Positions 23,393-52,164 of a stretch of 64,000 nt of DNA are shown piece by piece. The notes under the pieces were generated by a model. That model searched no databases, was not told the DNA's origin, and saw only the letters and a program-made list of their open reading frames with translations. Origin of the DNA: Kitasatospora acidiphila (GTDB lineage Bacteria; Actinomycetota; Actinomycetes; Streptomycetales; Streptomycetaceae). Location: positions 620,001 to 684,000 of the forward strand of contig NZ_VIGB01000003.1 of assembly GCF_006636205.1 (NCBI RefSeq), given 5' to 3'. Position 1 is the first letter of the stretch. Each line of letters starts with the position of its first letter. The position numbers and the translations under genes were made by a program.

Positions 23393-23423
23393 AGCGGGTG
23401 ACGGCGGCCCGCCGTCACCCGCT
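23393..23423. terminator. Bidirectional hairpin between the SARP gene and the NRPS operon
   Basis: AGCGGGTGACGGCG at 23393-23406 pairs perfectly with 23410-23423 across a 3-base loop. It lies between two convergent stops, and its right arm overlaps the end of the MFS gene. It probably serves both transcripts. Confidence 0.65.
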
Positions 23424-27700: not shown

Positions 27701-27919
27701 CACGACGCCGCACGGCTCGCCGTCGACGAGGCGGAACGAGGTCCGCAGCAGTTCGTGCCGTGCGACGAGGGCCGACAGCGCGGAGCGCAGCGAGCCGACG
27801 TCGAGCGGTCCCGTCAACCGGAGCGGCAGTGGCACGAGGTATCCGGCCGGGTGCGCACCGAGTTGCTCGGCGAACCACAGCTGCTGCTGGCTCTTGGACA
27901 GCCGGACGAGGTTCGTCAT
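24755..27919 (-). CDS. NRPS, one module C-A-PCP, 1054 aa
   Basis: This single-module synthetase has a condensation domain at about 5-430, with active-site HHLAFDD near 136 (DD instead of the usual DG). The adenylation domain spans about 450-950 (TSGSTGRPK near 611, YGPTEAT near 750), and the carrier has LGGHSLL near 1003. Aligned by eye to GrsA, the specificity residues read D-A-L-Q-V-C-G-V-C; I do not recognise the substrate. No E or TE domain follows. The ATG at 27919 follows AGGAAGGG. A GTG at 27970 overlaps the upstream NRPS stop (GTGA) and has GGAGGAGG further up, so translation may start 17 codons earlier. The end overlaps the MFS gene. Because the upstream NRPS ends in E, this C domain may accept a D-residue. 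Confidence 0.95.
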
Positions 27920-27966: not shown

Positions 27967-30900
27967 TCACGGTGCTTCTTCCTCCTCCGGGTCGGCGCCG
28001 AGCCCGCAAGTCATCGCCAGGGTGCGGGCGTGCCCGAGGAACCGGTCGACCAGCTCCTGGATGGCGGGCACCTCCCATTCGCGGCCGGGATACCCCCAGT
28101 GCAGTCGCAGTTCGCCGTCCGCGACGAGCGCCGTCACGTCGAACCGGTAGGGGCGCGGGAGACCGGGCGCGAATTCCGCGCCGCGTTCGCCCCGAGCCCG
28201 CCGGAGCAGGCCGTCCTCCGAGCCCGAGCTGAGTTGCCCGTGGTAGTTGAAGCAGAGGTCCGACGCGGTCCAGGGCTCGGACCCGTCGCGCAGGTACCTG
28301 GTCATCCCGTACCCGGCGCCGACCGGCTGTCCGGAGAACTGGCGGTGGACGTCCAGCAGTTGAGCGACCGGGTCGTCTCCCTCCGGCAGGCGCACGTGCA
28401 CCGGGTAGACCGCGGTGAACCACCCGACCGTGGCCGACACGTCGAGGTCTGTGCCCAGGGCGTCGCGGCCGTGGCCTTCGGTGTCGATCCGGAACTCCCG
28501 CCTCCCCGTCCAGTCCGCCAGGGTCCGGACGAGGACGGTCATCAGCACGGACTTGATGTCGGTGCGGTGGACCGCCGCCGATCGGCGCACGAGTGCTTCC
28601 GTCGCCGCCCTGTCCAAGGTGCCGGAGACGGTCCTTGCGTCGGCGGCCAGGTTGCCGCCGGCGCCTTCACCGTGCGGCAGTTCGCCCGCGTGGCTGGTGC
28701 CGAGCGCGCGCCAGTGTTCTGCCGCCGGGGCGAACTCCTCGGATCGGGCTCGGGCCGCGACCGCGCCCGCCCAGGCTTGGAACGAGGTCGTCTTGGCGGG
28801 CAGGCTCGGCTGCCGACCGGCTTCGAGCTGGCCGTAGACGAGGCCGAGGTGCTGCAGCAGGATGTCCCAGGACACCGTGTCCACCGCCAAGTGGTGGACG
28901 ACGAGCACCAGTTGGTCGGGGCCTTGGTCCGCTTCGAGCAGCACCGCGCGCAGCAGCGGTCCGGTGGCGAGATCGAAGGACGCCTGGGCGGCTTCGGCGG
29001 CGGCCAGCAGCGCCTGTTCTGCCTCGTCGGCGGTCAGGCCGGCGCCCTCGACGATGTCGAGGAGGTCGGTGTCGTCGACCGGTGCGAGGTACTGGTGCCA
29101 GCGGCCGTCGCGTTCCTCCAGCCGCAACCGCAGCGCGTCGTGGTGCCCGACCAGCGCGGACAGCGCGTCGCTCAGCAACGTGGAGTCCAGTTGCTCGGCG
29201 CTCTCCAGCCGCACCGACTGGTTGAAGTGGCTTTCGGGACCGTGGGTTTGGAGGAACCAGTGCTGGATCGGGGTGAGCGGGACTTCGCCGGTCACCGCTC
29301 CCTGCTGCGCCCGCACCGGGGCGCCACCGGCCCCGGCGGCCTGCGCGAGCTCCGCGATGCTCTGGTGGTCGAACACCTCACCGGAGGTGAGCGTCACGCC
29401 GGCCTGGCGGACCTTGGAGGCCACCCGGATCGCCATGATGGAGTCGCCGCCGAGCTCGAAGAAGTTCTCGTCGATCCCCACCTCGGCCAGGCCGAGCACC
29501 TGGCACCACGCCTCGGCCAGTACCTTCTCGGTCCGGGTACGCGGGGCCCGACGGGGGCGATCCGCACCGGCCTCCTCCGCCGGGACCGGCGCCGGCAGCG
29601 CATTGCGGTCGACCTTGCCGTTGGCGGTCAACGGGATCCGCTCCACCACCACGAACGCCTGCGGCACCATGTACTCCGGCAACGCCTGCCCCACATGCGC
29701 ACGCAGCACCGACACCGGCACCTCGACACCACCACGCACCACCAGGTAGGCCACCAGGCGCTTGTGACCACCATCGGCCCGCGCCACCACCACCGCCTCC
29801 GCGATCTCCGGATGCGCGATCAACCGCGCCTCCACCTCACCCGGCTCGATCCGGAAACCACGGACCTTCACCTGCCGGTCGATCCGACCCACGAAGTCCA
29901 ACTGCCCATCGGCACGCCACCGCACCGCATCACCCGTGCAGTACATCCGCGCACCCGCCACCGGACTGAACGGATCCGGCACGAACCGCACCGCCGTCAA
30001 CCCCGGATCATTCAGATACCCACGCGACACCCCCGCACCACCCGTACACAACTGCCCCACCACACCCACCGGCACCGGATCGAAGTTCTCATCCACCACA
30101 TACACCGACGTCCCCGAGATGGGACCACCGATCGGTATCCGCGCATCGACGGCGTCCTTGATGACGACGCTGGTCGTCGTACCGGTGTTCTCGGTCGGGC
30201 CGTAGCAGTGGAGCAGCGCCACATCGCGGGTCGCCGGGCCGGCGAGCGCCGCCGAGAACGCGCTCGGCATGGCCACGTCGCCACCGATCGCGATCTGTCG
30301 AAGGCCGGCGAGCGCTTCGAGGTCGTGCTCGACGAACTGGTTGAACAGTGCGGTCGTGGTGACCAGGCTGGTCACCGAGTGCTCGCGGATCAGCGCCGCG
30401 ATCTCGGGGATGTCCAGCTGCCCTGCCCTCGGCATCACGAGCCGCCCGCCCTGCAGCAGGCTCGTCCACAGTTCCATGGCGGAGATGTCGAAGCTGAGCG
30501 GCGCGAGCTGGATGAACGTCTCATCCCGGCCGTGGGCCAGGTAGTCGGGCAGGTAGGCCAGCCGCAGGATGTTGCGATGCGTGATGCCGACGCACTTCGG
30601 GACCCCGGTCGAACCCGAGGTGAAGCTGACGTACGCGAGCGAGTCCGGGTGCGCGGCAATCGCCAACGCCTCGGCGGATTCCGCGGCGAGCGCGGCCTGG
30701 ACCTCGGGATCATCGAGCACGACGACCGTGCGGCCATGCGCCGCCGCGCCGATCCCGGCCAGCGACTCGGTCGTGGCCACGATGACCTCGGTCCGGCTGG
30801 CCTCGGCGTAGCCGGCGGCACGCTCGGCCGGCCCGGCCGGGTCCAGGAAGAGATAGGCACCGCCGGCCTTCAGGGCCCCCAGCAACGCGACCACCGTCTG

Positions 30901-32568
30901 CGCCGATCGCGGAACCGCGATCCCCACGACGGAATCCGCGTTCACTCCGTGGCCGCGTAGCAGCCGGGCCAGCCGGTTCGTCAGCGAGTCGAGCTCGCCG
31001 TAGCCGAAGGTGCCACCGGCCCCGGTCAGGGCGACGGCGTCCGGGTGCCGCGCCGCCGCCTCGGCGAACAGCTCGCCGATGGTCCCGGTCGATCGGTCCC
31101 AGTGCACCGACCCCGTCCACGCGGTGATCCGATCGGCTTCAGCGGCCGAATCCAGCCGCAGGCCCGCCGGCGCGACCGCGGGATCGGTGATGGCCTGCTC
31201 GACGGCCTGCCGGAAGTGGTCCATCAGGACTCCCACCGTCGCCGGTTCGAACAGCCCGGATTCCCCGATCAGTTCGAACTCGATCACGGGGCCCCGGCCG
31301 ACGCCGACGAGCATCAGGTCGTTCTTCACCGAGCCGAGGTCGACGGGCACCGGCTCGGCCGCGACCCCCGCCAGCGACCAGCCGCCTGCCTCGGTGTCCA
31401 CCCAGTCCGCGACCGCCTGGCACAGCGGCATCCGCGAGCCGCCGCGGGGCACGCCCAGCTCGGAGACGATGCGCTCCAGCGTGATGTCCTGATGGTCCAG
31501 GGTGCCCAGGAACGCTCTCGCCGTGTGCCGCACGGCGTCCTCGACGGTGGCGGCGGCGCCGAGCCGGACCGGGATCGGCACCAGGTTGGCGAACAGGCCG
31601 ACCAGCCCTTCGGTCTCGGTGCGCCGGCGGCCGGAGACCGCGGCGCCGATCACCAGATCCGACTGCCCGGAATGCCGGCTCAGGACCGTGGCGAACAGCG
31701 CGACCATCGCGGTGAACGGCGTGGCGCCCGCGGCGGCGGCGAGCTCGTGGAACCGCTGGCTCTGCTCGGCGGACATCGACCACTCCGCACGGTGGCCCCT
31801 GGGCGAGCGCGCCGAGGTCCTCGGCCGGTCGGTCGGCAGCTCCAGCACGTGGGGGATGCCCGCGAGCGCCTCGCGCCAGTACCCGAGATCGCGCTCGCCC
31901 GGCTCGGAGTCGAAGCGGGCAGCCTGCCACTCGGCATAGTCGCCGTACTGGACGGGAACTGCCGCAAGCTCGACCGGGGTGCCGGTCACCCGGGCCGTGT
32001 AGCAGGCGTCGAGCTCGCGGTGCAGGACGCCGAGTGACCACTCGTCACCGATCAGGTGGTGCATGGCCAGCAGGAGCAGGTGCTCGTCCGCTGCGGTGCG
32101 GGCCAGCCGGACCCGCCACAGCGGCCCGCCGGCGAGGTCGAACGGACGGGCGCCTTCGCGCGTCAGCGCCCCCACTGCGTGCTCGCGGGCGGCTCCGCCG
32201 TCGGCACTCAGGTCGATGACCTCGAAGTCGACCGCAGCCGAGGCCTGTGGGGCGACCGACTGGCGCGGCGGGTCCTCGCCGGCGAAGGTCGTCCGCAGCG
32301 TCTCGTGCCGCCGTGCGAGGTCCGTGAAGGCTTGCCGGAGGGCTTCGTGATCCAGCGCTCCGCGCAGCCACGACAGCTCGGTCATGGTGTAGAGGCCCTC
32401 GTCGGCGGCCAGTTGCCCGGCCGCCCAGACCCCGCGCTGGATCGGCGAGAGCACGGCGTCCGCGCCCGCCCGGCGCGGGATCGCGCGCCGGGCGAGCCTG
32501 GCGGCGAGGTCGATCGTCTTGCCGCCGACTCGGAGCTCCCGGCTCGCGACGCTTTCGACACCGGTCAT
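27967..32568 (-). CDS. NRPS, one module C-A-PCP-E, 1533 aa
   Basis: After an Arg-rich N-terminal stretch (possibly docking), a C domain covers about 38-470 with HHLIGDEWS near 177. The A domain follows (TSGSTGVPK near 653, YGPTENT near 791), then the carrier (LGGDSIM near 1040) and an epimerisation domain from about 1100 ([21 protein letters not shown] near 1226). It should therefore add a D-configured residue. Specificity residues by eye are D-I-M-L-A-G-C-G-T, with no match I recognise. Blocks around A3, A6-A10 and PCP-E are nearly or fully identical in DNA to the neighbouring NRPS gene. The start lies 4 bases after the upstream stop, with AGGGGA inside that gene's end. Confidence 0.95.
29636..30120 (-). 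repeat. 485-bp exact duplicate inside NRPS A domain, copy 1
   Basis: This segment, encoding the C-terminal subdomain of the A domain (about core A6 to just before A10), is base-for-base identical to 35262-35746. Its coding strand prefers GGT, GTG, CGT, GAT and TTG codons, unlike the GGC/GTC-rich flanks. This suggests recent copying of an imported block. Confidence 0.95.
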
Positions 32569-32572
32569 CGGA

Positions 32573-35500
32573 CTATCCCCTGTCCCAAGTCATGAGCGGG
32601 CCCTGGACGCGCATCACCAGGTCGACCCGCAGTTCGGCGAGCAGATCTTCGAGCAGCGGCGTGGCGCCGTCACCGTTGGCGAGGACCACCAAGCCGTGGC
32701 CGGACACCGGATCCACGGCGTAGACGCTGCGGAATCCCGGGCCGTCGCCGGGGTGTCCGATCCACCGCCTGCCCGCCACGGTCTTCACGGAGGTGCCGAG
32801 CCCGTAACCGGTCCGCAGTCCGTCGAGCATCTGCTCGACGTCCGAGCGGCTGAGCACGACTCCCCGGTCCTGCGTCAGCGCGCGGTGGAGCTCGGCACCG
32901 ACCCGGGCCAGGTCCGCGGCGGACGTCCAGACGAGTTCGGCCGCGGCCGCGCCGCCGGACCGCCGACCGCGGCCGTAGCCGCGCCCGGTCGCGGTGTGCC
33001 CGACGGCGACCGCGTCCCCGGCCCCGGTGGGGAACTCGGGCAGGAACACCGTGTCGTCCATGCCCAGGGGATCGAGTACCAGAGTCCTCAACGCCTTCGG
33101 GAACGCCAGGTTGGTGACATCGGCGATGATCCGCTCGATCAGCGTGTAGTTCGCGAGGCTGTACTCGTACTGGGAGCCCGCCGGTCGGCTGACGGCGACG
33201 AGCGGCCCTTCCGCGTCCTCGTCCGGGCTCAGTCCCGCGCTGTGGCAGAGCAGATGACGGACCGTCACCGGCTGGGCCGGGTCCGGCGTGTCGACGCGCT
33301 GCTCGAGCAGCAGCTCGTTCACGGGGGTGTCGAGCGTGAGCAGGCCGTCGCGGGCTAGCCGCATCACCGCGATGGCGGCGAGGTGCTTCGCCACCGACCC
33401 GACCTGGAAGACCGTGTGCTCGGTCACCGGGACCGAGCCGCCGGCCGCGGTCACGCCGCTCCCCCACGCCGTGATCTCGCCGTCCGTGATCGTGGCGACA
33501 CTCAGACCGGGCACGCGGTAGCGCACCATCGGTCCGATCAGCAGCGGCGTCTTCGGATGGATGCGCCGCAGCCACTCCTCGGGCTCGGCCTGGTCCGCGT
33601 CCCAGAGCGAGATCTGGTTCACGAAGCGCCGCAGTTCCCGCAGGTGGTTCTCCGCGACGGACCGCACGGTCTCGCGGTCGAAGGCGTCGGCCGCGTACAG
33701 CCACGTCACCTGGAGCCGGCCGTCGATGATCCCGGCCATGACCTCCAGCGGATAGGAGCTCGCGAAGTCCGCCGGCGCCTCCGAGCCGAGCGTGCCGGGC
33801 AGGTCCGTGAAGGGGAAGCCGCCGTCGCCGGGTGCGTCACCCACCTCGCCGATGTAGTTGAAGCCGATCTCCGCGTCGGAGCCGACCGCCGCGGCGAGTT
33901 CGGGGCCGGCGAGGTAGCGGGCGACACCGTAGCCCATGCCGCGGTTGGGCATCGCCTGGGTCTGGTCCCGCACCTGCGCCACGTAGGAGCCGAGGCTGTC
34001 ACCAGCCGTGAGGTGCAGGGTCATCGGATGGACGGCGGTGAACCAGCCGACGGTCCGGGCGACGTCCTGGTCGCGGGCGAACGCCTCGCGCCCGTGGATC
34101 TCGACGTCGAGGGCCACGGCGCCGCTGCCCACCCAGTCGTGCAGCGCCGGGACGGCCGCGACGAGCAGCAGTTCGGCGGCGGTGATCCGACCGGTGGTGC
34201 GCCTGGTCGCGGCGCGGAACGCGTCGGTCTCGGCGAGGTCCAGCTCGACCCGCACCCGGCCGGTCCCCGCCGGGTCCGAGCCGGCTGCCGCGTCGCGGGG
34301 CAGCGGCGTGGGGCGGCTGCGGGCCTGGGTCCAGTACTCCGCGTCCTTCTGGAACGCCGGGCCGGCCGCGTACCGCTGCAGGTGCTCTGCCCATTCCTTG
34401 AACGACGTGGTCTTGCTCGGCAGTTCGATGGGCTCGCCGCGCACGGCGCTGGTGTACGCGGCGGCCAGATCGCCGGCGAGGAAGCTCCAGGAGACGATGT
34501 CGACCGCCATGTGGTGGACGACGATCAGCAGTTCGTCCGGCGCGGTCCCGCCGTGGTCGAAGAGGACCGCGCGCATCAGCGGGCCGGTCACCAGGTCGAG
34601 GCCCGCCTGGGCCCGCGCCCCGGCCGCCTCGGCCAGCTCCTCGCGCTGGGCCTGCGGCCACGCCGAAGCGTCGATGACCTCCAGGGGCGTCGGGTTGTCG
34701 TCGACCGGTGCGAGGTACTGGTGCCAGCGGCCGTCGCGCTCCTCCAGCCGCAACCGCAGCGCGTCGTGATGCCCCGCCAGCGCCGACAGCGCGTCGCGCA
34801 GCGCCTCGGGGTCGGCCTTGTCGTGCCAGCGCAGCAGCTTCGACTGGTTGAAGTGGTTTTCGGGGCCGTGGGTTTGGAGGAACCAATGCTGGATCGGGGT
34901 GAGCGGGACTTCGCCGGTCACCGGTCCCTGCTGCGCCCGCACCGGCGTGCCACCGGCCCCGGCGGCCTGCGCGAGCTCCGCGATGGTCTGATGGTCGAAC
35001 ACGTCACCGGAGCTGAGGGTCACGCCGGCCTGGCGGACCTTGGAGGCCACCCGGATCGCCATGATGGAGTCGCCGCCGAGCTCGAAGAAGTTCTCGTCGA
35101 TCCCCACCTCGGCCAGGCCGAGCACCTGGCACCACGCCTGAGCGAGGACCCGCTCGGCCTCGGTACCCGGGGCGCGACGGGCACCGCCGTCCTCGGCCGC
35201 CTCGGCGGGCGAGGGGGCGGGCAGCGCGTCGCGGTCGACCTTGCCGTTGGCGGTCAACGGAATCCGCTCCACCACCACGAACGCCTGCGGCACCATGTAC
35301 TCCGGCAACGCCTGCCCCACATGCGCACGCAGCACCGACACCGGCACCTCGACACCACCACGCACCACCAGGTAGGCCACCAGGCGCTTGTGACCACCAT
35401 CGGCCCGCGCCACCACCACCGCCTCCGCGATCTCCGGATGCGCGATCAACCGCGCCTCCACCTCACCCGGCTCGATCCGGAAACCACGGACCTTCACCTG

Positions 35501-38182
35501 CCGGTCGATCCGACCCACGAAGTCCAACTGCCCATCGGCACGCCACCGCACCGCATCACCCGTGCAGTACATCCGCGCACCCGCCACCGGACTGAACGGA
35601 TCCGGCACGAACCGCACCGCCGTCAACCCCGGATCATTCAGATACCCACGCGACACCCCCGCACCACCCGTACACAACTGCCCCACCACACCCACCGGCA
35701 CCGGATCGAAGTTCTCATCCACCACATACACCGACGTCCCCGAGATCGGACCACCGATCGACACCCGCGGCCCCTGCTCGGGGCCCAGCACCGCTGCGGT
35801 GGTGACGCAGGTGTTCTCGGTCGGGCCGTAGGCGTTGATCAGGGTCAGTTCCGGATGGGCGCGGACGACGCTCGCGCAGGGCGCGGGCAATGCGACGTCG
35901 CCCCCGATGAGCAACTGCCGCAGGCCGCTGAACGCCGCCATGTCCTGCTCGGCGATCTGGTGGAACAGCCCCGTGGTGGGGCTGAAGCTGGTGATCGAGT
36001 GCTCCCGGATCAGCGCCGCGATCTCGGGAACGTCCAGCCGCCCGGGCGCCGGCGCGACGACGGTGCCGCCGTTCAGCAGCGGAACCCAGATCTCCTCCAG
36101 GGAGACGTCGAAGGCGAGCGGCACGGTGTGCAGGGCGGTGTAGCCGGGGCCGGACGACAGGTAGCTCTGCCGGTGCGCCAGCCGGACGATGTTGCGGTGG
36201 GTGATGCCGACGCACTTCGGGACCCCGGTCGAACCCGAGGTGAACGTCACGAACGCCAGCGAGTCCGGATGCGCGGCAATCGCCAACGCCTCGGCGGATT
36301 CCGCGGCGAGCGCGGCCTGGACCTCGGGATCATCGAGCACGACGACCGTGCGGCCCTGCGCCGCCGCACCGATCCCGGCCAGCGACTCGGTCGTGGCCAC
36401 GATGGCCTCGGCCCCGCTGTCACCGACGAGCAGCCGGTTGCGCTCCGGCGGCGCGACCGGATCGAGCGCCAGGTACGCGCCACCGGCCTTGAGCACCGCG
36501 AGCAGCACCGTGATGAGGGCGGCCGACCGGGGAACCGCGACTCCGACGACGGTGTCGGCCCCCACGCCCCGCGCGCGCAGCACCCGCGCCAACCGGCTGG
36601 AGCCGTCGTCGAGTTCCGCATAGGTCATGGTCCGGTCCACCCCGACGACGGCCGTCGAGTCGGAGGCGGTGGGCAGGATGGCGGCGAACAACTCGGGCAC
36701 TGTCGTCTCGACGGTGGTGCCGAGGGCCTTGAGACCCCAGTCGAGCAGTTCCCGGCGATCGGCGGCGGTGAGGACCTCGATCTCACCGATGCGGGCTTCG
36801 GGCCGCTCCGCCATCTGCTCGAGTATCAGCTCATAGGTGCTCAGCACGCGTTCCGCGTCGGCTTCGCTCACCCGCGCGGGCTCATAGGTCAGGTGGAGCA
36901 GCAGTTCGTCACCGGCCACCACGCTGAGGTCCAGCGGGAAGCCGGTCTGCTCGTAGCTCCGCACGACCTGCAGGTCGAGCCCGGCTGCGTCCGCGTCGGC
37001 GTCCTGATGGAGGTCGACGAACTGGAACAGGCTCTCGAACAGCGGGGTCCCGCTCGGCACCGAGGTGTGCCGTCGGATGCGGGTGATGCCGATGTGCTCC
37101 GCCTTGCGCATCCCGTTGAGGGAGGTGCGCAGTTCCGCGAGCCAGTCCGCGACGACCGCGTCGGCGTCGACCGTGACCCGGGCCGGCACCGTGTTGATCA
37201 GCAGGCCGACGATCCGCTCCAGGTCGGCCTGGTCCGCGGAGCGGCCGGAGAGGATGGTGCCCCAGCACACGTCCCGCTGCCCGCTGTACCGGCTCAGCGC
37301 GATCGCCCAGGCGCCCTGCACCACCGTGTGGACGGTGCAGTGGTTGCGCCGGGCGAGTTCGGCCACCCGCTCGGTGAGGGCCGGGGAGACGGTGCGGACG
37401 GCCGACGCGCTGCTCGAACTCGCCTCGCGGGCGGCAGCGGCGATGAACGGCAGCGTCGTCGGCGAGTCGAAACCGCCCAGCAGGCCCGCCCAGAAGTCCT
37501 CGTCGGCCTGCTCGTCGCGCCGCCGCAGCCACTCGACGTGGCGGCCGAAGGGCACTGGCTCGGGAAGGCCGGGGAGCATGCCCGCGGCCAACGCGGAATA
37601 GGCCGCGCCGAGTTCGCCCCGGACGATGGATCCGCTCCAGGCGTCCATGAGGATGTGGTGCTGGTGCCAGGCGAGCAGATGGCGTTCGCCGTCGAGCCGG
37701 ATCAGGTCGAATGCCAGCGGCGGCGCGGCAGCCAGGTCCATGCCGCGGTGGCGCCGGTCGAGGAGCAGCCGGGTCGTCGCCGCGTGTATCGCCTCGTCAT
37801 CGCGGCCGCGCCAGTCCAGGGCCCGCAACGGCAGCGGGAAGCCCCGGTGGACGACCTGGACGGGGTGCGCGACGCCGTCCGTGACGAAGGTCGTCCGCAG
37901 GATCGGGTGCCGATCGATGACGTACCGCCACGCGGCGATGAACGCCTCGGTGTCAAGCCGGCCCCGGATCTCGAACACCGTCTGGGTCAAGTAGTTCCCG
38001 TTGCCCGGGCGGTGCGTCGATTCGAAGAGGATCCCCGCCTGCAGCGGCGACAGGGCATAGATGTCCACGACCGTGTCCGGCGGGTACCGGTCGAGGACGC
38101 TGTCCAGACCGTCCGCATCCAGATCGGCCTCGGGGAACTGCTCGGGGGTCGGCCGGAACCGTTGATTCATCGCCATCACCAA
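32573..38182 (-). CDS. NRPS C-A-PCP-E with C-terminal PBP/beta-lactamase-like hydrolase domain, 1869 aa
   Basis: Domains in order are C (about 40-470, HHILMDAWS near 175), A (TSGSTGVPK near 650, YGPTENT near 787), PCP (LGGDSIM near 1037) and E (from about 1097, HHMAVDIVS near 1227). The last 340 residues are a serine hydrolase of the penicillin-binding protein / class C beta-lactamase type: SVAK near 1597, HSAGLS near 1649, YSLANY near 1675 (where YSN is usual) and HPGDG near 1812. Specificity residues by eye are D-V-E-F-L-G-A-C-V, unassigned. Stand-alone PBP-type thioesterases such as SurE act after terminal E domains and close peptides on a D-residue. A cis-fused copy after E suggests this is the last, releasing module, although it is the first NRPS gene in the operon. 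No signal peptide or membrane helix is present, so it is not an exported prodrug peptidase. Confidence 0.93.
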   Translation of the reverse strand: MVMAMNQRFRPTPEQFPEADLDADGLDSVLDRYPPDTVVDIYALSPLQAGILFESTHRPGNGNYLTQTVFEIRGRLDTEAFIAAWRYVIDRHPILRTTFVTDGVAHPVQVVHRGFPLPLRALDWRGRDDEAIHAATTRLLLDRRHRGMDLAAAPPLAFDLIRLDGERHLLAWHQHHILMDAWSGSIVRGELGAAYSALAAGMLPGLPEPVPFGRHVEWLRRRDEQADEDFWAGLLGGFDSPTTLPFIAAAAREASSSSASAVRTVSPALTERVAELARRNHCTVHTVVQGAWAIALSRYSGQRDVCWGTILSGRSADQADLERIVGLLINTVPARVTVDADAVVADWLAELRTSLNGMRKAEHIGITRIRRHTSVPSGTPLFESLFQFVDLHQDADADAAGLDLQVVRSYEQTGFPLDLSVVAGDELLLHLTYEPARVSEADAERVLSTYELILEQMAERPEARIGEIEVLTAADRRELLDWGLKALGTTVETTVPELFAAILPTASDSTAVVGVDRTMTYAELDDGSSRLARVLRARGVGADTVVGVAVPRSAALITVLLAVLKAGGAYLALDPVAPPERNRLLVGDSGAEAIVATTESLAGIGAAAQGRTVVVLDDPEVQAALAAESAEALAIAAHPDSLAFVTFTSGSTGVPKCVGITHRNIVRLAHRQSYLSSGPGYTALHTVPLAFDVSLEEIWVPLLNGGTVVAPAPGRLDVPEIAALIREHSITSFSPTTGLFHQIAEQDMAAFSGLRQLLIGGDVALPAPCASVVRAHPELTLINAYGPTENTCVTTAAVLGPEQGPRVSIGGPISGTSVYVVDENFDPVPVGVVGQLCTGGAGVSRGYLNDPGLTAVRFVPDPFSPVAGARMYCTGDAVRWRADGQLDFVGRIDRQVKVRGFRIEPGEVEARLIAHPEIAEAVVVARADGGHKRLVAYLVVRGGVEVPVSVLRAHVGQALPEYMVPQAFVVVERIPLTANGKVDRDALPAPSPAEAAEDGGARRAPGTEAERVLAQAWCQVLGLAEVGIDENFFELGGDSIMAIRVASKVRQAGVTLSSGDVFDHQTIAELAQAAGAGGTPVRAQQGPVTGEVPLTPIQHWFLQTHGPENHFNQSKLLRWHDKADPEALRDALSALAGHHDALRLRLEERDGRWHQYLAPVDDNPTPLEVIDASAWPQAQREELAEAAGARAQAGLDLVTGPLMRAVLFDHGGTAPDELLIVVHHMAVDIVSWSFLAGDLAAAYTSAVRGEPIELPSKTTSFKEWAEHLQRYAAGPAFQKDAEYWTQARSRPTPLPRDAAAGSDPAGTGRVRVELDLAETDAFRAATRRTTGRITAAELLLVAAVPALHDWVGSGAVALDVEIHGREAFARDQDVARTVGWFTAVHPMTLHLTAGDSLGSYVAQVRDQTQAMPNRGMGYGVARYLAGPELAAAVGSDAEIGFNYIGEVGDAPGDGGFPFTDLPGTLGSEAPADFASSYPLEVMAGIIDGRLQVTWLYAADAFDRETVRSVAENHLRELRRFVNQISLWDADQAEPEEWLRRIHPKTPLLIGPMVRYRVPGLSVATITDGEITAWGSGVTAAGGSVPVTEHTVFQVGSVAKHLAAIAVMRLARDGLLTLDTPVNELLLEQRVDTPDPAQPVTVRHLLCHSAGLSPDEDAEGPLVAVSRPAGSQYEYSLANYTLIERIIADVTNLAFPKALRTLVLDPLGMDDTVFLPEFPTGAGDAVAVGHTATGRGYGRGRRSGGAAAAELVWTSAADLARVGAELHRALTQDRGVVLSRSDVEQMLDGLRTGYGLGTSVKTVAGRRWIGHPGDGPGFRSVYAVDPVSGHGLVVLANGDGATPLLEDLLAELRVDLVMRVQGPLMTWDRG
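35262..35746 (-). repeat. 485-bp exact duplicate inside NRPS A domain, copy 2
   Basis: This is identical to 29636-30120 at constant offset 5626. Near-identity (about 95% by eye) also covers 36201-36409 versus 30581-30789, the A3 region, and about 34850-35146 versus 29224-29520, the PCP/E junction. The substrate-binding part between A3 and A5 differs completely between the two genes. Confidence 0.95.
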
Positions 38183-38208: not shown

Positions 38209-38421
38209 TCAGGCGTCCGCCGCAGCGGCCATCCGGTCGCGCAGGCTGCGCGGCCGCAGGTCCGTCCACACCTGCTCGATGTGCTTGACGCAGTCCTGCT
38301 TGGAACCCGCCGTCCCCTCGTCGAACCAGCCCGGCGGATTCGGCCGGTCCGCGGCCCAAAGGGAGTACTGCTCCTCGTGGTTGACGACTACCTTGAACTG
38401 CGCCTCATGGCCGTCGGCCAT
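38209..38421 (-). CDS. mbtH: MbtH-like protein, 70 aa
   Basis: This is a small chaperone that binds NRPS adenylation domains and supports their folding and activity. The family signature NHEEQYSLW and the following RPNPPGW are present, and the C-terminal helix carries DLRPRSLRDRM. A strong GGAGG ribosome-binding site lies just upstream. It sits between the dioxygenase and the first multidomain NRPS gene, so it likely serves the A domains of this operon. Confidence 0.97.
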   Translation of the reverse strand: MADGHEAQFKVVVNHEEQYSLWAADRPNPPGWFDEGTAGSKQDCVKHIEQVWTDLRPRSLRDRMAAAADA

Positions 38422-38456: not shown

Positions 38457-39416
38457 TCAGCTCATCGCGACGAGGATCCGGCGGTCGCCGGTGTACGGCT
38501 CGCGGCCGTGGGCCATCAGCATGTTGTCGATCATCAGGACGTCGCCCTGCCGGTACGGCAGCGCCAGCGCGACGCGGTCGTAGGCCGACGCGATCGTCCT
38601 CAGGGCCTCATCGGGGATCGAACCGCCGTCCGCGAAGTAGGCGTTGCGGGGCAGCTCGGCCTCCGAGTACACCCCGAGCAGGGCTTCGCGCACCTCGGGC
38701 TCCAGGCTCGAGACGTGGAACAGGTTGGCCTGGTTGAACCAGACCTCCTCGCCCGTGTGCGCGGCCTGGGCGGTGGCCGGCCGGCGGTGCCGGGTGCGCA
38801 GCCCGTCCTCGGCCCACTCGAACTCGATGCCGTGGCGCGTGCAGTACTGCTCGACCGCTCCGCGGTCGGCGGTCTGGAAGGCCTCCTCCCAGCTCAGGCC
38901 GAGCCCGTCGCGGTACGCGCGGGTGTAGACGACGCCGTCGGCGAAACGCGCCCGCAGATCCGCGGGCAGCTGGGCGAGCACCGATCGGCTGTCGGCGATC
39001 GGGGTGGCGCCGCCGGTCGCGGGCGGGGTCTGGCAGGAGAAGAACAGCAGCTCCGGCCAACGGCTCGCGTAGGAGTTCTCGTTGTGCATCGGGATCGCCT
39101 GGTCGGCGGGGTACTCGGTGGAGGTGTAGATGTTGCCGCTGACCGCGCTGCGCGGGGTGGAGCGCTCGGTGTACTCGAGCAGGTCGCCGCCCACCGCGCT
39201 GACCACCTCGTGGAACGCCCCGACATCGCCCGCGGCGCCGCGCAGCAGGACGAACCCGCTGCTTCGGAGCGCGGCGCGCAGCGGCTCCCGGTGGGCGGTG
39301 ACCCAGGCCAGGGGATCCTCGACGGTGGCGAGGTCGTAGACCAGTGCGGCGGTGTGGCCGTTGTCGTGAACGTCGGCGGGCACGCCGCCGAGCGTGCTGC
39401 CTTCAGTGCGGAGCAT
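38457..39416 (-). CDS. TauD/SyrP-like Fe(II)/2-oxoglutarate-dependent dioxygenase, 319 aa
   Basis: This is a jelly-roll non-haem iron oxygenase. The iron ligands are seen in PMHNENSYA (HxE near residue 111) and the distal His in MAHGREPYTG near 303. GDRRILVAMS contains the Arg that binds 2-oxoglutarate. It resembles SyrP and related beta-hydroxylases that act on aspartyl or asparaginyl residues bound to carrier domains. Its neighbour encodes an A-PCP didomain with an Asn/Asp-like code, so beta-hydroxylation of carrier-bound Asn or Asp is the best guess. Free amino acid as substrate, as for AsnO, cannot be excluded. Confidence 0.9.
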   Translation of the reverse strand: MLRTEGSTLGGVPADVHDNGHTAALVYDLATVEDPLAWVTAHREPLRAALRSSGFVLLRGAAGDVGAFHEVVSAVGGDLLEYTERSTPRSAVSGNIYTSTEYPADQAIPMHNENSYASRWPELLFFSCQTPPATGGATPIADSRSVLAQLPADLRARFADGVVYTRAYRDGLGLSWEEAFQTADRGAVEQYCTRHGIEFEWAEDGLRTRHRRPATAQAAHTGEEVWFNQANLFHVSSLEPEVREALLGVYSEAELPRNAYFADGGSIPDEALRTIASAYDRVALALPYRQGDVLMIDNMLMAHGREPYTGDRRILVAMS

Positions 39417-39453: not shown

Positions 39454-41271
39454 TCAGTCGGCGAGGATGTCCCGGACGGTGCGCTTGCGCAGCACGTCCA
39501 TCAGACCGACCTGCAAGCCGGCCTTGCGGGCGCGGGTGACCACGCGTGCGGCGGCGATGCTCGTGCCGCCCAGAGCGAGGAAGTCGTCGTCGATACCGAC
39601 CTGCTCGGCGCCGACGGTCTCCCCGATGATCCGGCACAGCAGTTCCTGCTCCGGTGTCATCGGCCCGACCCCGGTCCCGGCGGGCTCGGCCGCCTCCGGT
39701 CCGGGGAGCGCCGCGCGGTCGAGCTTCCCGTTGGCCGTGAGCGGGAGATCGGCCATCGGTACGAAGACGGCCGGGACCATGTACTGGGGCAGCGTCCTCG
39801 CCAGGAACCGGCGCAACTCGACGGCGTCGACGGCGCCTTGGGCCGCGCCCACGACGTAGGCGGTGAGCCGGGTGTTGCCCGCGTCGTCCGGGCTCGGCAC
39901 CACGGCAGCCCGGTCCACCAGCGGGGACCCCGCGAGCGCTGCCTCGATCTCGCCGAGCTCGACCCGGTAGCCGTTGACCTTCAGCTGGTCGTCGACCCGG
40001 CCCAGGTACTCGAGCTCGCCGTCCGGCCGCGTCCGGACCAGGTCGCCGGTGCGGTACATCCTCCCCGGGCCCGGTTCGCCGGACGGATCGTCGATGAACC
40101 GCTCCGCGGTGAGCGCCGGACGGTTCAGGTATCCGCGCGCCAACTGGGCGCCCCCGATGAACAGTTCGCCGATCCCGACGTCGGGGACGGGCCGCCGGGC
40201 GTCGTCGAGGACGTACAGCCGGGTGCCCTCGATGGCGCGCCCGATCGGCACGGCTCCCGGCTCCAACCGGCGACCGGGTTCGACCACGTACACGCAGCAG
40301 CCGACGGTCGCCTCGGTGGGGCCGTACTCGTTGACGACGCTCACCCCGGGGTGTGCCGCCCGCCACGCCTCCAGCGCCGCGCCGAGCAGCGCCTCGCCGC
40401 CGATCACCAGTTGCTCGCTCGGCGAACACTCACCGGGCAGCCGACGCAGCAGCGCCAGGTGCGACGGCGTGACCTTGAGGAAGCTCGGCTTGCGGAATCC
40501 CGGCGGCAGGGCACGGCCGTCGGCCAGCGAGACCAGATCGACGACCTCGACCGATCCTCCCGCGATCAGCGGGGGGAAGATGCTCGTCACGGCCAGGTCG
40601 AAGGAGACCGAGGAATGCAGCAGCGTCCGGCCGGCCGCGGCGGGGTAGTGCGTGCGCGCGTAGTCGAGGTAGGTGTTCAGGGCTCCGTGCTCGATCACGA
40701 CGCCCTTGGGCATGCCCGTGGAGCCGGACGTGTAGATCACATAGGCGGTGCTGTCGTCTTCGGGCGGCGGGGCCACGGATGTCGAGAACGCCGAGTACAC
40801 CGATCCAGCCGGATCGCAGGCGTCCAGCAGTCCTTCGGTCTCCGGAGATTCCAGGTGCAGGACGCAGGCCCCGGTGTCCGTCCCGGCGAGCACGGTGCGA
40901 GCGGCCTCGCCCGACGCCACCACGATCGGCGCGGCGGAGTCGGCGAGGACATGCGCGATCCGCCGGGCCGGGTCGTCGAGGGCGATCGGCACGTACCCGG
41001 CGCCGGTCTTCAGCACCGCGAGCAGCGCGGCGACGATGTCGGTCGACCTGTCGAGCATCACTGCGACGAACGCACCGGGCCCAACGCCCTTGTCGGCGAG
41101 CACTCCGGCGAGCCGGGCCGCCCGGTCGTCGAGTTCCCGGTAGGTCAGCTCGCGGCCGTCGTGGACGACGGCGACCGCGTCGGGAGTCGCGCGGACCTGC
41201 TCGGCGAACAGCTCGGGGGCGGTGCGCGGCGCGTTCGTCGAAAGTCGGGATGACATGGTTCGGGTTGACAT
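39454..41271 (-). CDS. Free-standing NRPS A-PCP didomain, predicted Asn (or Asp), 605 aa
   Basis: This is a loading protein without a condensation domain. The A domain has LTYRELD near 47, YTSGSTGMPKG near 185, YGPTEAT near 319, YRTGDLV near 400 and NGKLDR near 517; the carrier has LALGGTSI near 567. Specificity residues by alignment to GrsA read D-L-T-K-V-G-E-V-G, close to known asparagine codes (DLTKLGEVG) and near aspartate codes. The pairing of A-PCP, oxygenase, Cys-type shuttle and free PCP mirrors SyrB1/SyrC and CmaA/CmaE/CmaD systems, where the amino acid is modified on the carrier and then moved. An alternative start, MSSRLS, lies six codons in. Confidence 0.93.
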   Translation of the reverse strand: MSTRTMSSRLSTNAPRTAPELFAEQVRATPDAVAVVHDGRELTYRELDDRAARLAGVLADKGVGPGAFVAVMLDRSTDIVAALLAVLKTGAGYVPIALDDPARRIAHVLADSAAPIVVASGEAARTVLAGTDTGACVLHLESPETEGLLDACDPAGSVYSAFSTSVAPPPEDDSTAYVIYTSGSTGMPKGVVIEHGALNTYLDYARTHYPAAAGRTLLHSSVSFDLAVTSIFPPLIAGGSVEVVDLVSLADGRALPPGFRKPSFLKVTPSHLALLRRLPGECSPSEQLVIGGEALLGAALEAWRAAHPGVSVVNEYGPTEATVGCCVYVVEPGRRLEPGAVPIGRAIEGTRLYVLDDARRPVPDVGIGELFIGGAQLARGYLNRPALTAERFIDDPSGEPGPGRMYRTGDLVRTRPDGELEYLGRVDDQLKVNGYRVELGEIEAALAGSPLVDRAAVVPSPDDAGNTRLTAYVVGAAQGAVDAVELRRFLARTLPQYMVPAVFVPMADLPLTANGKLDRAALPGPEAAEPAGTGVGPMTPEQELLCRIIGETVGAEQVGIDDDFLALGGTSIAAARVVTRARKAGLQVGLMDVLRKRTVRDILAD

Positions 41272-41283
41272 GGTGATGGCCTT

Positions 41284-42069
41284 TCAGCTGCTGACCGTGA
41301 GCGTGGCCGTGACGGCGGCGGCGACCGCCGGGCTGCGCAGCAGATCGGCGCGGCTGGCGTCGAACGAGGTCTCACGATCCGTGAAACCGCCTTCGTGGTC
41401 AGCCGAGTTGATGGACAGTGCGTCCACCCACCGGGGCTGGCGCTCCAGTTGGCGCGCCGCCGACAGGTAGCGCGTATAGGCGCGGAACAGCCCCATGAGC
41501 TCGTCGCCGACCTCGCCCTCGATGCCCCATCGATCGAACGCGATCCGGCTGGCGTCGACGTAGACGGCGCAGAACTCCTCCGCCAGGGCCGCGAAGTCGC
41601 CGGCGCAGTGCTTGGCGACCTCCTCGGCGCGCTGCCGGAACCGCTGCCGCTCGTCCTCGTTCAGCGCGGTCATCGACCCCAGCGCGCCGAACAGATCGCG
41701 GCTGAGGGTCGCCGTGTTCGGCGATCCCGGGTTGAAGAGGACGACCTCGGGCCGGACCTCCTGCCTGAGCTCGATCGCGTCGGCCAGCGCCGCCGCGTAC
41801 ACACCGCCCGCGCAGTAGCCGAGGACCGCCGAGACGCGCTCGCCGGAGCGCGGCAGGGTCTCCAGCCACCAGGCCAGGTACTGGTCGGCGCGCTCGAGAT
41901 CCGCTGTCGGCGGGACCGCGTGCCACACGTCCAGCCGATCGGGCAGCAGCCGGGCCAGGTCCCGGAAGGTGGCCTCCTGGCGGGTGCTTCCGTCGAAGTC
42001 GACGGCCAGGACCAGGGCGCCCTGGCCGCCCCCGCCGAGTCGGTCCCACCCCTGCGATGCTGAGGTCAT
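41284..42069 (-). CDS. Alpha/beta hydrolase with Cys nucleophile, candidate aminoacyl shuttle, 261 aa
   Basis: This has a thioesterase-like fold, but the nucleophile elbow reads GYCAGG (near residue 85) instead of GxSxG. Asp is available downstream, and a late His lies in SADHEGGF near 220. A Cys nucleophile is the hallmark of CmaE and SyrC, which move aminoacyl groups from the A-PCP protein to another carrier rather than hydrolysing them. It lies between the genes for the A-PCP didomain and a free-standing PCP, exactly the donor and acceptor such an enzyme needs. A proofreading type II thioesterase is the alternative, but these use Ser. Confidence 0.82.
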   Translation of the reverse strand: MTSASQGWDRLGGGGQGALVLAVDFDGSTRQEATFRDLARLLPDRLDVWHAVPPTADLERADQYLAWWLETLPRSGERVSAVLGYCAGGVYAAALADAIELRQEVRPEVVLFNPGSPNTATLSRDLFGALGSMTALNEDERQRFRQRAEEVAKHCAGDFAALAEEFCAVYVDASRIAFDRWGIEGEVGDELMGLFRAYTRYLSAARQLERQPRWVDALSINSADHEGGFTDRETSFDASRADLLRSPAVAAAVTATLTVSS

Positions 42070-42101: not shown

Positions 42102-42377
42102 CTAGCCCTGAGCGGTTCGAACGGCCACGGCCTCGGCCACGCCGTCGACCGTCCTGGCCCGGAAGACGTCGCGGATCGTCACCTTGACGTCGAAGACCTG
42201 GCGCAGCCGGGCGACCAGGCGCGCGCCGAGCATCGAGTTACCGCCGAGCTCGAAGAAGTCGCTCTCGCCGTTCACGGGTGCGTCGCCGCCGAGGACCTCC
42301 TGGAAGACCTCCGCGACCTGCGGTGCGAACATCTCGGCGGTGGGCTGGTTGGACGTCAGGTCTGATGCGGTGTTCAT
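42102..42377 (-). CDS. Free-standing peptidyl carrier protein, 91 aa
   Basis: This is a single four-helix carrier domain with the phosphopantetheine site FFELGGNSML (Ser near residue 48). It has no attached catalytic domain. It lies between the LanB-like gene and the Cys-type shuttle, so it is the likely acceptor of the loaded and perhaps hydroxylated amino acid, and the likely substrate platform for the LanB-like protein or the free C protein. Confidence 0.95.
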   Translation of the reverse strand: MNTASDLTSNQPTAEMFAPQVAEVFQEVLGGDAPVNGESDFFELGGNSMLGARLVARLRQVFDVKVTIRDVFRARTVDGVAEAVAVRTAQG

Positions 42378-42437
42378 GTGTCGTGTCCTTAGGTCAGGGG
42401 TAGCGGTGAGTCTGATGTCGCCATCGCCGGCTGGGAG

Positions 42438-44810
42438 TTACGCGCCGGCGCCGTCGATCGCGACGAGCCGCAGCTCGGACGCGTAGGCCGCGCCCGCGCC
42501 GTCCCGGAGCCAGTGCCCGGGCAGGTCGGGCAGCATCTCGGAGAACGAGACCCGGGACGCGGGATCGTCCTCGGCCGCGCTGCGGACCGCAGCGGCGAGC
42601 AACTCCACCAACGCGATGCTGCTGAAGTCGACGTAGATCGGCTTGGCCTCCACCGCGACCCGGTAGAAGGCACGCCGCGGCAGCCCCACCAAGTCGCGCC
42701 AGCGCACTGCGGCCCGATGCCGCTCGACGCGGTCGGAACGCCGCACCCAGGCCAGTTCGGTGACGCCGATGCTCCAGGACTCGCGGGAGATCACCAGCCG
42801 GTCGATCGTGACGCGGGGACGGTATGCGGCCGACGGCAGCGGCTTGAAGCCGTTCATGGCGGCGCCGGACAGGTACTCCCCCAGCACCTCCAGGATGTCC
42901 AGGTCCGGCGCCTCGGGGGACTTGACGATCAGACGCTCGCCATCGCGGTGCACGGTCATGGACGCGCCGGGGATGACCCGGCCCGTCGTCCCGGTGTTTC
43001 GGGCGTGCATGGTCCACACCAGGTCCTGCGGGCCGACCAGCACCGGAGGGTACGTGCGGGAGTTGACCGCCGGGGATTCCCGTGCGGGCAGCGGGAGCAC
43101 GCGCGGCGTCCGGCGGTCGGCCGCGTCCGTCGCGGCGAACCGGGCGGGGTCGGGGCACTGCGCGATACCGGCCGGGCTGTCCTGCGTGTTGATCGCCAGA
43201 TGCAGCTCTCCGAGCACGAACTCGTAGTCGCCGGCGGCGATCGCCTGCGGGTCGCGGCCGGTGATCATGATGTCCGGGCACTGGTGGACCGCCGACGACC
43301 ACGGCGGCTCGCAGGCCGGGAACAGCTCGCGCACCCGGTCGGCCAGGTCGGCGGCCGACACCTGGTGGCGGCGGACGCCGTCCGGGACCGCAAGGATCTC
43401 CGCCCAGCGCCGCTGGAGCTCCGGGACGACCGCCGCGACCGGCGGCGCGAGGTCCTGGAACGAGTAGACCAGGTCAGGTGTCATCGCGTTGAGGACGGCG
43501 TTCAGCGACACCTCGCCGTCCGCGGAGGCCGAGCGGAGCCTCTCGTACACCTGCACGAGGCGCCTGCCGTACGCCTCGCCGACCTGTCCGACGAACCAGC
43601 GCGCGCTGTCGAGCAACAGGCCCAACGGCGCGGCGAGTTGTCCGAGCAGGTCCGCCCCCAATGCCACCTCGGTGTCGCGGACCGTGTCCTCGTACACCAC
43701 CCGCCGACCGCCGTAGGCCTGTCCCGCCCGGCGTGCCGGATCCTGCCCGGTCACCCGCTCGAAGACCTCGTCGAGCCGTTCCATTGCCTTGAACACCGAG
43801 TCGGCGTCGCCCGCCGCCTCGCTCACGGCCTCACGGGCGGCGAGCACCTCGTCCAGGAGGCCGAGCGCCTGCTCGCGGGCCACCGCGTCGGCCACCGCCA
43901 GGAGCTCACCGCGCAGCTCCTGCTCGCGGAACTCGCCCACGGAGAGCGGGAGTTCGCATACCAGCAGGTCTTCCGCGGTGAGCCGGTCGACGACCGCCAA
44001 CACACTCTCGCCGGTCCGCTCGGCGTATCCCGGGATCGACCGCTCGATCTCCAGGATCGTCATGGCCCCATCGCACAGGTCGAAGACCTCGGCCTCCGCG
44101 GCGGTGAGCTCGCGCACCGGGCCGCGCGGCCTGCGAACGCTGCCGTCGCCCAGCAGCACGTCGGCCTCCGAGCGACGCGGCTTGAGGGACACCCGCACCC
44201 GCGGATCGGCGGCGAGCGCCCGGGCCACCGCTTCGACGGCCCAGTGCTCGAAGTACACCTGGCGTCGGCGCAGCAGCCGCTCACCGGGCCGGACCGTCAT
44301 CCCGGTCGTGTCCTCGCACCATCGACCCCAGCAGTGCGGTCCGAAGAAGCCGATGGTCTCGTTCTTCAAGCCGTAGCGCTGGAGGTAGGTGGCGACCTTG
44401 AGCTCCCGGCGGCGCTGCCGTGCCGGCTGGGCCTTGGACCGGGTGGCGACCTTGTCCACGCAGTCGCGGAGCATGGCGGGGTTCTGCCACGCGACCGCTT
44501 CGCGGAGCATCGGGTCCGCCGCCGCCGCGCGCAGCGCCGCCTCCATCCGTGCGATGGCGCCGTCGTACTCCCGGGCCAGTGCGTCCGACAGCGGGGCTTC
44601 GGAGTCCTCGGCGGCTGCGGCCGCCAGCAGTTCGTCGTCGGCCAGCGGCTCGACGATGGCCGACGGGAACCCGGCGGAGCGCAGCTCCACCTGTCGCCAC
44701 ACCTGCCACCCGGTGTCACCGAGGGGGATCAGATCCCCGTTCTGGTTCCCGCTCGCCTCGCTCGCTCCGGTTGTTCCGGTTGTTCCGGTTGTGCCAGTCA
44801 TCCCGTTCAT
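42438..44810 (-). CDS. LanB-type protein (lantibiotic dehydratase N-terminal domain only), 790 aa
   Basis: This protein matches the tRNA-dependent glutamylation domain of LanB dehydratases: VELRSAGFPSAIVEPL near residue 40, a region with WQNPAML near 108, and YLQRYGLKNETIGFFGP near 140-157. The closing segment FYRVAVEAKPIYVDFSS, then ASELRLVAID, is as in that domain. The separate elimination domain (SpaB_C) is missing, and no LanC, precursor peptide or protease gene lies nearby. LanB homologues lacking elimination include peptide aminoacyl-tRNA ligases (PEARLs), which add an amino acid from a charged tRNA. Here the partner genes are all NRPS-like, so a carrier-bound amino acid is the likely acceptor. 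The start overlaps the upstream stop (ATGA). The N-terminus holds a Thr-Gly repeat from 9-bp tandem DNA repeats. Confidence 0.88.
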   Translation of the reverse strand: MNGMTGTTGTTGTTGASEASGNQNGDLIPLGDTGWQVWRQVELRSAGFPSAIVEPLADDELLAAAAAEDSEAPLSDALAREYDGAIARMEAALRAAAADPMLREAVAWQNPAMLRDCVDKVATRSKAQPARQRRRELKVATYLQRYGLKNETIGFFGPHCWGRWCEDTTGMTVRPGERLLRRRQVYFEHWAVEAVARALAADPRVRVSLKPRRSEADVLLGDGSVRRPRGPVRELTAAEAEVFDLCDGAMTILEIERSIPGYAERTGESVLAVVDRLTAEDLLVCELPLSVGEFREQELRGELLAVADAVAREQALGLLDEVLAAREAVSEAAGDADSVFKAMERLDEVFERVTGQDPARRAGQAYGGRRVVYEDTVRDTEVALGADLLGQLAAPLGLLLDSARWFVGQVGEAYGRRLVQVYERLRSASADGEVSLNAVLNAMTPDLVYSFQDLAPPVAAVVPELQRRWAEILAVPDGVRRHQVSAADLADRVRELFPACEPPWSSAVHQCPDIMITGRDPQAIAAGDYEFVLGELHLAINTQDSPAGIAQCPDPARFAATDAADRRTPRVLPLPARESPAVNSRTYPPVLVGPQDLVWTMHARNTGTTGRVIPGASMTVHRDGERLIVKSPEAPDLDILEVLGEYLSGAAMNGFKPLPSAAYRPRVTIDRLVISRESWSIGVTELAWVRRSDRVERHRAAVRWRDLVGLPRRAFYRVAVEAKPIYVDFSSIALVELLAAAVRSAAEDDPASRVSFSEMLPDLPGHWLRDGAGAAYASELRLVAIDGAGA

Positions 44811-46069
44811 GAGGCCTCCTCAATCCGCACCGCGGTTCCGGCGCACTGTGCGAGTGACTCGGCCAGGCACTGCGTGTACCGCTCGCCGGACCGCGCCGAC
44901 AGGTGCCCGCTCCACTGCACCTCGCAGCCGAGGCCGCCACCGTCCTCGAAGAAGCGCACCGACAGCGGGGTCTTGGCCGCGTAGTTGGGGACGTCGAGCT
45001 CTGCCGTGCACGTCACGCCCGCGAAGGCGCGCTCGACGGACTGCTGCTGGCTGCGGTAGGAGATCATCACCTGGTTCAGTGCCTCCACCGCACCCCCGCC
45101 GCGGCGCACGTGCGCGGCCAGGTCGGCGAAGGAGTAGTGGCGCCGCCGCAGATCGTCGGACCATCTCGCATGCTCTCGCCGAGCCAGGTCGACGACTGTC
45201 TCGCCGGCCTCCCGACTCGCGGGCAGCGGCACCTCGTTGATGAAACATCCCACCACCGCGGCCTCGCCGGCGAGCCGCTGGGATGCGGCCGCGCCGAGCG
45301 CGGTCACACCGCTGTCCGGCACCGGCAAGGCATGGTGGACCGCCGCCGAGACCAGTTTGAATACGCTGATGCCGACGGAGCCGGCGCACGCGCTGATGCC
45401 TGCCGCGGCGGCCGGATCCGCGGTGATGATCCGCCGCAGCACCGTGTCGGAGGCGCCCTCGCGCGGGAACGGGGCGACCATCGCCGATGGCGGGATCCTG
45501 TCGTACCAGTAGTCGCGGTCCTCGGTGAGCGCGGACTCCTCAGCCGCGCGAACCCGGCGGACCAGGCGGACGTACTCGTCAGGCGAGGCCGGCGTCACGG
45601 CTCCGGTGATGGACATGCTCAGCTGCTCGGCGAGGAGGCGGTGGCTGATCCAGTCGTAGACGAGATGGTGGACGATCAGGACCACTGTCGTGTGCCCGGG
45701 AGCCACCGGCAGAACGAGGAATCGCACCAGCGGACCGTCGTCCACCTCGAACGGCCGCATGGTTCGCGCCGCGATGAAGGTCTCGGCGTCGTCCACCGGC
45801 TCGGCGAGCATCTCGATCTCGGGCTCGTCATCCGAGAAGCCGTAGACGATCTCCCCGGTCCAGGCGTCGATGCCCATCCGCACCCGAAGGGCCGGCGTCG
45901 CGGCCACCAGCCGCCGACAGGCGGCGGCCAGCTCCGCCGCCGCGATCCGGCCCCGGACCTCCACGCGCACCGCGAGGTTGAAGGCCCCTGTCGCTTCGGC
46001 CTTCTCATCCGCGAAGTAGAGCGCGGCTTGGGCCAGCGTCGCCCGCTCGCTCCCCTTGATCAGAGCCAC
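44807..46069 (-). CDS. Free-standing condensation-domain protein, 420 aa
   Basis: This is a single NRPS condensation-type domain with active-site HHLVYDW near residue 136 and the late motifs GCFINEVPLP near 270 and RRHYSFADLAAH near 305. No carrier or A domain is attached, so it acts in trans, probably joining the product on the free PCP to another acyl or aminoacyl group. The start is uncertain. A GTG at 46069 with AGGGAGC just before it is used here; an ATG at 46177 would add 36 residues of unlike sequence. It is the first gene of the biosynthetic operon. Confidence 0.88.
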   Translation of the reverse strand: MALIKGSERATLAQAALYFADEKAEATGAFNLAVRVEVRGRIAAAELAAACRRLVAATPALRVRMGIDAWTGEIVYGFSDDEPEIEMLAEPVDDAETFIAARTMRPFEVDDGPLVRFLVLPVAPGHTTVVLIVHHLVYDWISHRLLAEQLSMSITGAVTPASPDEYVRLVRRVRAAEESALTEDRDYWYDRIPPSAMVAPFPREGASDTVLRRIITADPAAAAGISACAGSVGISVFKLVSAAVHHALPVPDSGVTALGAAASQRLAGEAAVVGCFINEVPLPASREAGETVVDLARREHARWSDDLRRRHYSFADLAAHVRRGGGAVEALNQVMISYRSQQQSVERAFAGVTCTAELDVPNYAAKTPLSVRFFEDGGGLGCEVQWSGHLSARSGERYTQCLAESLAQCAGTAVRIEEAS

Positions 46070-46211
46070 GTCGGCTCCCTGCTCGTCGACCTCATGCCGA
46101 CCATTCCAGAGGATGGGGATCCACAGGGGATATGCGATCGGTCCCTGGGGGATCGACGATCCGGGGGCTCGGGCCATTGCCGGCCCTGGAATCGGCTCCG
46201 CGCTCGCGGAC

Positions 46212-46323: not shown

Positions 46324-46461
46324 GGGGTGGCACGCTGCACCTTGGGTGCGATCGTGCGACGTGTGCGCGCGTGCGTCGGGCGCGTCGGGCGTGGCAGGCC
46401 GTGCTTCGCGGCGATGATCTGCGCATGAGTTGCGGTGAAGCCCACGTCATCGGAGCAGCCA

Positions 46462-52113: not shown

Positions 52114-52164
52114 AGAGTGCCTCCGATCGTCGTTGATCCACACACAGAAAAAGACAATACCATT

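Follow-up and report, generated by a model that had tools for sequence, protein, structure and literature searches.

The window analysed here, a 64,000-nucleotide stretch of Kitasatospora acidiphila contig NZ_VIGB01000003.1 (positions 620,001 to 684,000), carries a minus-strand nonribosomal peptide synthetase (NRPS) operon in which a LanB-like protein sits between a free-standing ("lone") condensation (C) protein and a lone peptidyl carrier protein (PCP). The host genome is 8.58 Mb, and Kitasatospora supplies the closest named homologues of the LanB protein. Gene calling relied on codon bias and reproduced the genes of the window. The operon reads C, LanB, PCP, NcmC-like protein, adenylation-thiolation (A-T) protein, TauD, MbtH, NRPS1, NRPS2, NRPS3 and a major facilitator superfamily (MFS) exporter; neighbouring genes are at most 60 bp apart, and the C/LanB and NRPS3/MFS pairs overlap (Table 1).

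The first-pass annotation had described a 790-residue protein with LanB N-domain motifs and no elimination domain, coupled to the C gene and followed by a carrier, and all of this was borne out. The motifs RSAGFP (R44) and KNETIGFFGP (from K149) are present, and PF04738 is matched alone, with no PF14028. The open reading frame (ORF) is more than a chance one, since its third-position GC is 0.92 and it has a full-length homologue with 95% identity. The end of the C gene overlaps the LanB start in an ATGA, with GAGGAGG upstream. For the C gene itself, the caller chose an ATG at 46177, whereas the GTG at 46069 agrees with the C protein of the related locus L005 (LanB 83% identical), which begins 'MALMQGTERATL'. 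The PCP gene follows directly after LanB. A Pfam scan of 30 window proteins yielded no LanC-like protein and no PF14028 elimination domain (0/30), and the operon gaps leave no room for a separate precursor gene, small ORFs outside the operon not having been examined; there is also no polyketide synthase (PKS) among the operon genes. The elimination domain, precursor peptide and LanC that mark a class I lanthipeptide dehydratase were not found in these proteins and gaps, and the protein instead has the LanB N-domain without elimination domain that is typical of SnaE and of peptide aminoacyl-tRNA ligases (PEARLs). Its predicted structure (predicted local distance difference test score 91.6) most resembles glutamylation domains, with TbtB ranking first. 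The genome holds three PF04738 loci, namely two full-length LanBs and the window protein.

To place the active site, BhaB7 residues were mapped onto the window LanB by motif and spacing rather than by direct alignment, and conservation was read from a 101-row alignment (the window, 23 of 95 homologues, and 77 survey genes of 700-900 residues, excluding thioesterase-fused LanBs and the frameshifted P0092). The ATP-site residues D513, E535, E779 and R781, corresponding to BhaB7 D558, E575, E813 and R815, are kept in 100-101 rows. The reference set for the tRNA CCA end is BhaB7 R197, Q201, Y205, R208 and R429; among its counterparts, R145 and R369 are kept in all 101 rows and Y142 in 98. Because the PEARL ATP-site and main tRNA-end residues are kept, the window LanB is likely an ATP- and aminoacyl-tRNA-dependent amide ligase of the PEARL type. 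A dehydratase role was rejected because none of the 30 scanned window proteins has an elimination domain and the ATP site is retained.

The tie of LanB to a lone C and a lone carrier also held in the wider neighbourhood survey. When 63 C domains were placed in a tree, a single clade united the lone Cs of the window, L005, L014 (both Kitasatospora), L046 (Plantactinospora) and L010 (a Streptomyces metagenome-assembled genome) (support 100/100 from a bootstrap that had not settled; stem 1.19; five rows). Genome searches with the lone C, scoring four candidates per genome and so giving lower bounds, found it in at least 4 of 394 genomes in the family and at least 2 of 394 in the class, with the source genome in both. 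Five different genomes were hit in all, G028 and G057 apparently corresponding to L005 and L014; adding L046 and L010 brings the total to seven cassette loci in at least three genera. LanB is present at all seven, adjoining C in the window, L005, L046, G240 and G447, 1.8 kb away in L014, and about 8 kb away in L010, a locus with several apparently broken genes. A lone carrier is also present at all seven, though in G447 it lies about 10.7 kb from C. The C and LanB genes overlap by 4 bp in the window, G447 and G240 (LanB first in G240) and by 11 bp in L046. The carriers of the window, L005, L014, G240 and G447 share VKVTIR (VKVTIRDVF in the window), and G447 and G240 further encode NRPSs fused to a beta-lactamase domain, along with MbtH and a C-A-T protein. 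The Plantactinospora locus L046 packs consecutive T, C, LanB, A and NcmC-like genes into 6.6 kb, with another T-C gene 5.5 kb upstream. LanB relatives occur in 26 of 70 Kitasatospora genomes, often without the cassette C, whereas every cassette C seen was accompanied by LanB. All seven cassette LanBs belong to a single 13-row group (support 99/99), whose other members are two rows linked to urea-forming C domains and four homologues of unknown context. In L015, L016, L019, L026 and L034 the lone C next to LanB falls outside the clade and was not counted with the cassette, and an apparent T-LanB fusion in L034 was rejected because its frame exits the T domain mid-motif and looks frameshifted. 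The lone carrier was likewise rejected as a PEARL scaffold peptide, as the C-terminal ends of the cassette carriers differ and their GGNS/GGTS site is intact.

Table 1 Genes of the LanB-containing operon, in operon order
Feature	Position	Strand	Evidence
Free-standing condensation protein, motif VHHLVYDW	44807..46069	-	PF00668 E 2.9e-26; lone-C clade member
LanB N-domain (PEARL-like) protein, 790 aa	42438..44810	-	PF04738 E 8.2e-21, without PF14028; conserved residues; model; TbtB structural match
Free-standing peptidyl carrier protein, 91 aa, GGNS site	42102..42377	-	PF00550 E 6.8e-15
NcmC-like alpha/beta hydrolase, Cys nucleophile motif GYCAG	41284..42069	-	NcmC 6e6t E 1.7e-33
Stand-alone A-T protein, code DLTKVGEVGK (Asn-like)	39454..41271	-	Pfam and specificity code
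TauD-type oxygenase	38457..39416	-	PF02668 E 9.9e-47; PDB match clavaminate synthase-like protein
MbtH-like protein	38209..38421	-	PF03621
NRPS1: C-A-T-C/E-like, C-terminal beta-lactamase-family domain	32573..38182	-	Pfam; matches to penicillin-binding protein (PBP) family
NRPS2: C-A-T-C/E-like	27967..32568	-	Pfam
NRPS3: C-A-T, no thioesterase	24755..27919	-	Pfam; start from gene caller
MFS exporter	23415..24758	-	PF07690

A LanB homologue acting on an NRPS product has been described before. SnaE of the threopeptin pathway (Stackebrandtia nassauensis, 2024) adds Thr to a bis-arginyl urea, and its use of ATP and Thr-tRNA was also inferred in that paper, which counts about two thousand NRPS/PKS clusters with LanB-like enzymes and characterises one (PMC11212132). 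SnaE resembles the window protein in being LanB-like, in lacking an elimination domain and in its NRPS cluster having no precursor peptide; it forms a peptide bond to a proteinogenic residue, as the window protein is predicted to do. The proposed PEARL-type chemistry is likely and has a published precedent, and the tRNA-donor claim of the first-pass annotation stands as probable PEARL-type use of ATP and aminoacyl-tRNA but is not new in kind. The SnaE step comes after a urea-forming C domain (EHHXXHDG) of a hybrid NRPS-PKS, whereas the window operon has neither this motif nor a PKS and includes a lone C and a lone carrier of its own.

We surveyed species genomes for LanB relatives, keeping 80 of 424 as 78 loci; flanks reached at most 10 kb, some contigs were short, and many loci are near-copies, so locus counts are not independent. 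NRPS domains lie beside many of these LanBs, and none was seen next to relatives L006, L013, L018, L020 and L029 in neighbourhood queries. The urea-forming motif EHHxxHDG was found in at least 6 of the 78 loci (L009, L012, L021, L022, L024 and L027) and in none of the six HHxxxD C-type motifs of the window operon. On these motif counts, the SnaE rationale, in which urea-forming chain reversal leaves a carboxylate (PMC11212132), does not fit the window operon, and within the flanks examined it is visibly grounded in only six loci. Titles and abstract starts in the open-licence literature turned up no paper that mentions a LanB paired with its own lone C and carrier. What is new is the rare, recurrent C-LanB-carrier set, which lacks the published rationale for a PEARL.

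The survey also revealed a second free-standing LanB arrangement, in which two LanB-like genes flank a lone A and a lone T (L033, L042, L048, L056, L057, L058, L066 and L082); the lone A code is DARSxSQMTK in all eight. At L016 (8727-15336), a lone C, LanB, lone A and lone T are followed by a gene that reads by eye like an ATP-grasp ligase, possibly a third amide-forming enzyme in one operon.

Other relatives differ in their partners. The PEARLs TglB, BhaB7 and AmmB2, from pathways to ribosomally synthesized and post-translationally modified peptides, share with the window protein a PF04738-type domain, the ATP-site residues and part of the tRNA-end set, but extend a ribosomal scaffold peptide, none of which was found in the window operon (PMC11962472, PMC12945691). 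NisB, MibB, TbtB and MadB appear to share the N-domain fold, judging from the model, whereas the window operon showed no elimination domain, precursor or LanC, and their ATP-site residues differ.

The remaining partners suggest how the cassette might be supplied. Read at the usual code positions, the A-T protein has the Asn-like code DLTKVGEVGK. Unlike it, the A-T codes of G447 and G240 (DFWSVGMVHK and DFWNVGMVHK) look Thr-like rather than Asn-like. The TauD-type oxygenase may possibly beta-hydroxylate the loaded residue. A near match to the window code, DLTKIGEVGK, occurs in an Asn or cyano-Ala context (PMC12283262). The bripiodionen cluster offers a precedent in that its Asn module is divided between an A-T protein and a second T domain, neither of which is dispensable, alongside an NcmC-type protein (BpdC/BpdD/BpdE); a LanB is not among the gene-table entries drawn on here, and that cluster has a PKS (PMC10956176).

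The NcmC-like product, a presumed thioesterase, matches NcmC at 35% identity (E 1.7e-33). NcmC/TrdC Dieckmann cyclases carry Cys-Asp-His plus Tyr, and BpdE has the full set (essential residues Cys89, Asp116, Tyr204 and His245; PMC10956176); in the window protein Cys and Tyr are retained, but Asn replaces the aligned Asp and Ser the aligned His, so a plain Dieckmann cyclase was ruled out. Across six LanB-linked NcmC homologues (window, L005, L007, L008, L011 and L046), none has His at the aligned site, all have Arg next to it, and four keep the Asp. An alternative His about 20 residues upstream, present in five of the six, counts against loss of function and could be a relocated base. We suggest that this protein may transfer acyl groups between T domains.

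We lean towards a model in which the PEARL-type LanB, together with a dedicated free-standing module, adds a tRNA-borne residue to a nonribosomal peptide. What the analysis shows is the gene complement and its operon, the fold predicted for LanB, the conservation of key residues, and that lone C, LanB and lone carrier recur together; dependence on ATP and tRNA, the identity of the amino acid, the carboxylate that accepts it and the sequence of reactions are inferred. In this scheme Asn would be activated by the A-T protein, may be hydroxylated by the TauD oxygenase, and would then reach the lone carrier, perhaps with the help of the NcmC-like cysteine protein. There the lone C would condense it with the peptide assembled by the three NRPS proteins, or with some other amine, to give a product with a carboxylate. 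LanB is predicted to activate this free carboxylate on a small peptide intermediate by ATP-dependent phosphorylation and then to link it to the amino group of an aminoacyl-tRNA. The first-pass annotation had suggested a carrier-bound acceptor; PEARL chemistry requires a free carboxylate, and the C-terminal end of a carrier-bound thioester offers none. The cassette is a compact system for asking where the acceptor comes from and whether tRNA and carrier protein share one substrate.

Several points weigh against this model. No free carboxylate is evident, as the window has no urea-forming C motif and the A-T code is Asn-like, and two LanBs linked to urea-forming C domains share the 13-row group with the cassette LanBs. 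The ligase activity is a prediction, and the mapping to TglB, BhaB7 and SnaE goes by motifs and spacing; the D558-E575 spacing is 17 in BhaB7 and 22 in the window LanB, and at the offset positions expected for Q201 and R197 the alignment shows no conservation. D513 does not discriminate, being Glu in both other LanBs of the genome as in TglB, and the R781 column is Arg in both, though only across a long gap into the elimination domain.

The strongest rival, which we consider unlikely, is that a thioesterase or the PBP-like domain releases the peptide and the PEARL then extends its free C-terminus, with the lone C and carrier only serving a split Asn module. A released peptide would bear the free carboxylate that PEARLs use, and SnaE may act on free products (PMC11212132). 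A GHSMG motif precedes the LanB part in 21 of the 22 survey LanB genes above 900 residues, with a thioesterase confirmed by Pfam in L035 (the one tested) and precomputed for P0065 and P0072. However, the lone-C clade was found only with LanB (5/5 genomes), which is unexpected for a mere split Asn module, and neither G240 nor G447 has an Asn-like A-T code. It is improbable that LanB makes an acyl-aminoacyl-tRNA whose chain the lone C passes to an amine on the lone carrier, crossing from tRNA to carrier; if so, lone C, LanB and lone carrier would be a hybrid condensation machine joining two kinds of aminoacyl carrier. Slightly less probable again is an aminoacyl-carrier protein as donor in place of aminoacyl-tRNA: the constant lone carrier and the similarity of an aminoacyl thioester to an aminoacyl ester agree with it, whereas the retained tRNA-end counterparts do not. 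Glutamyl-tRNA-dependent modification of a hydroxyl on carrier-bound Ser, Thr or hydroxy-Asn, as in true LanBs, is very unlikely, for although the best structural matches are glutamylation domains and TauD could provide the hydroxyl, no scanned window protein has an elimination domain and the ATP-site residues are kept, unlike in LanBs.

Further features lie in and around the operon. The terminal domain of NRPS1 (32576-33550, minus strand) belongs to the beta-lactamase/PBP family, with matches including the PBP cyclase Ulm16. A 28-bp tandem repeat (4.4 copies, 93% match, 46208-46330) lies between the upstream side of the lone C gene and a divergent carbonic anhydrase gene. Outside the operon, Pfam identified an M24 aminopeptidase at 50671-52143. 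A second NRPS end (A-T-thioesterase; 59-1741, plus strand) stands at the left window edge, separate from the LanB operon, and an IS110-family transposase gene occupies 53745-54977 on the plus strand.
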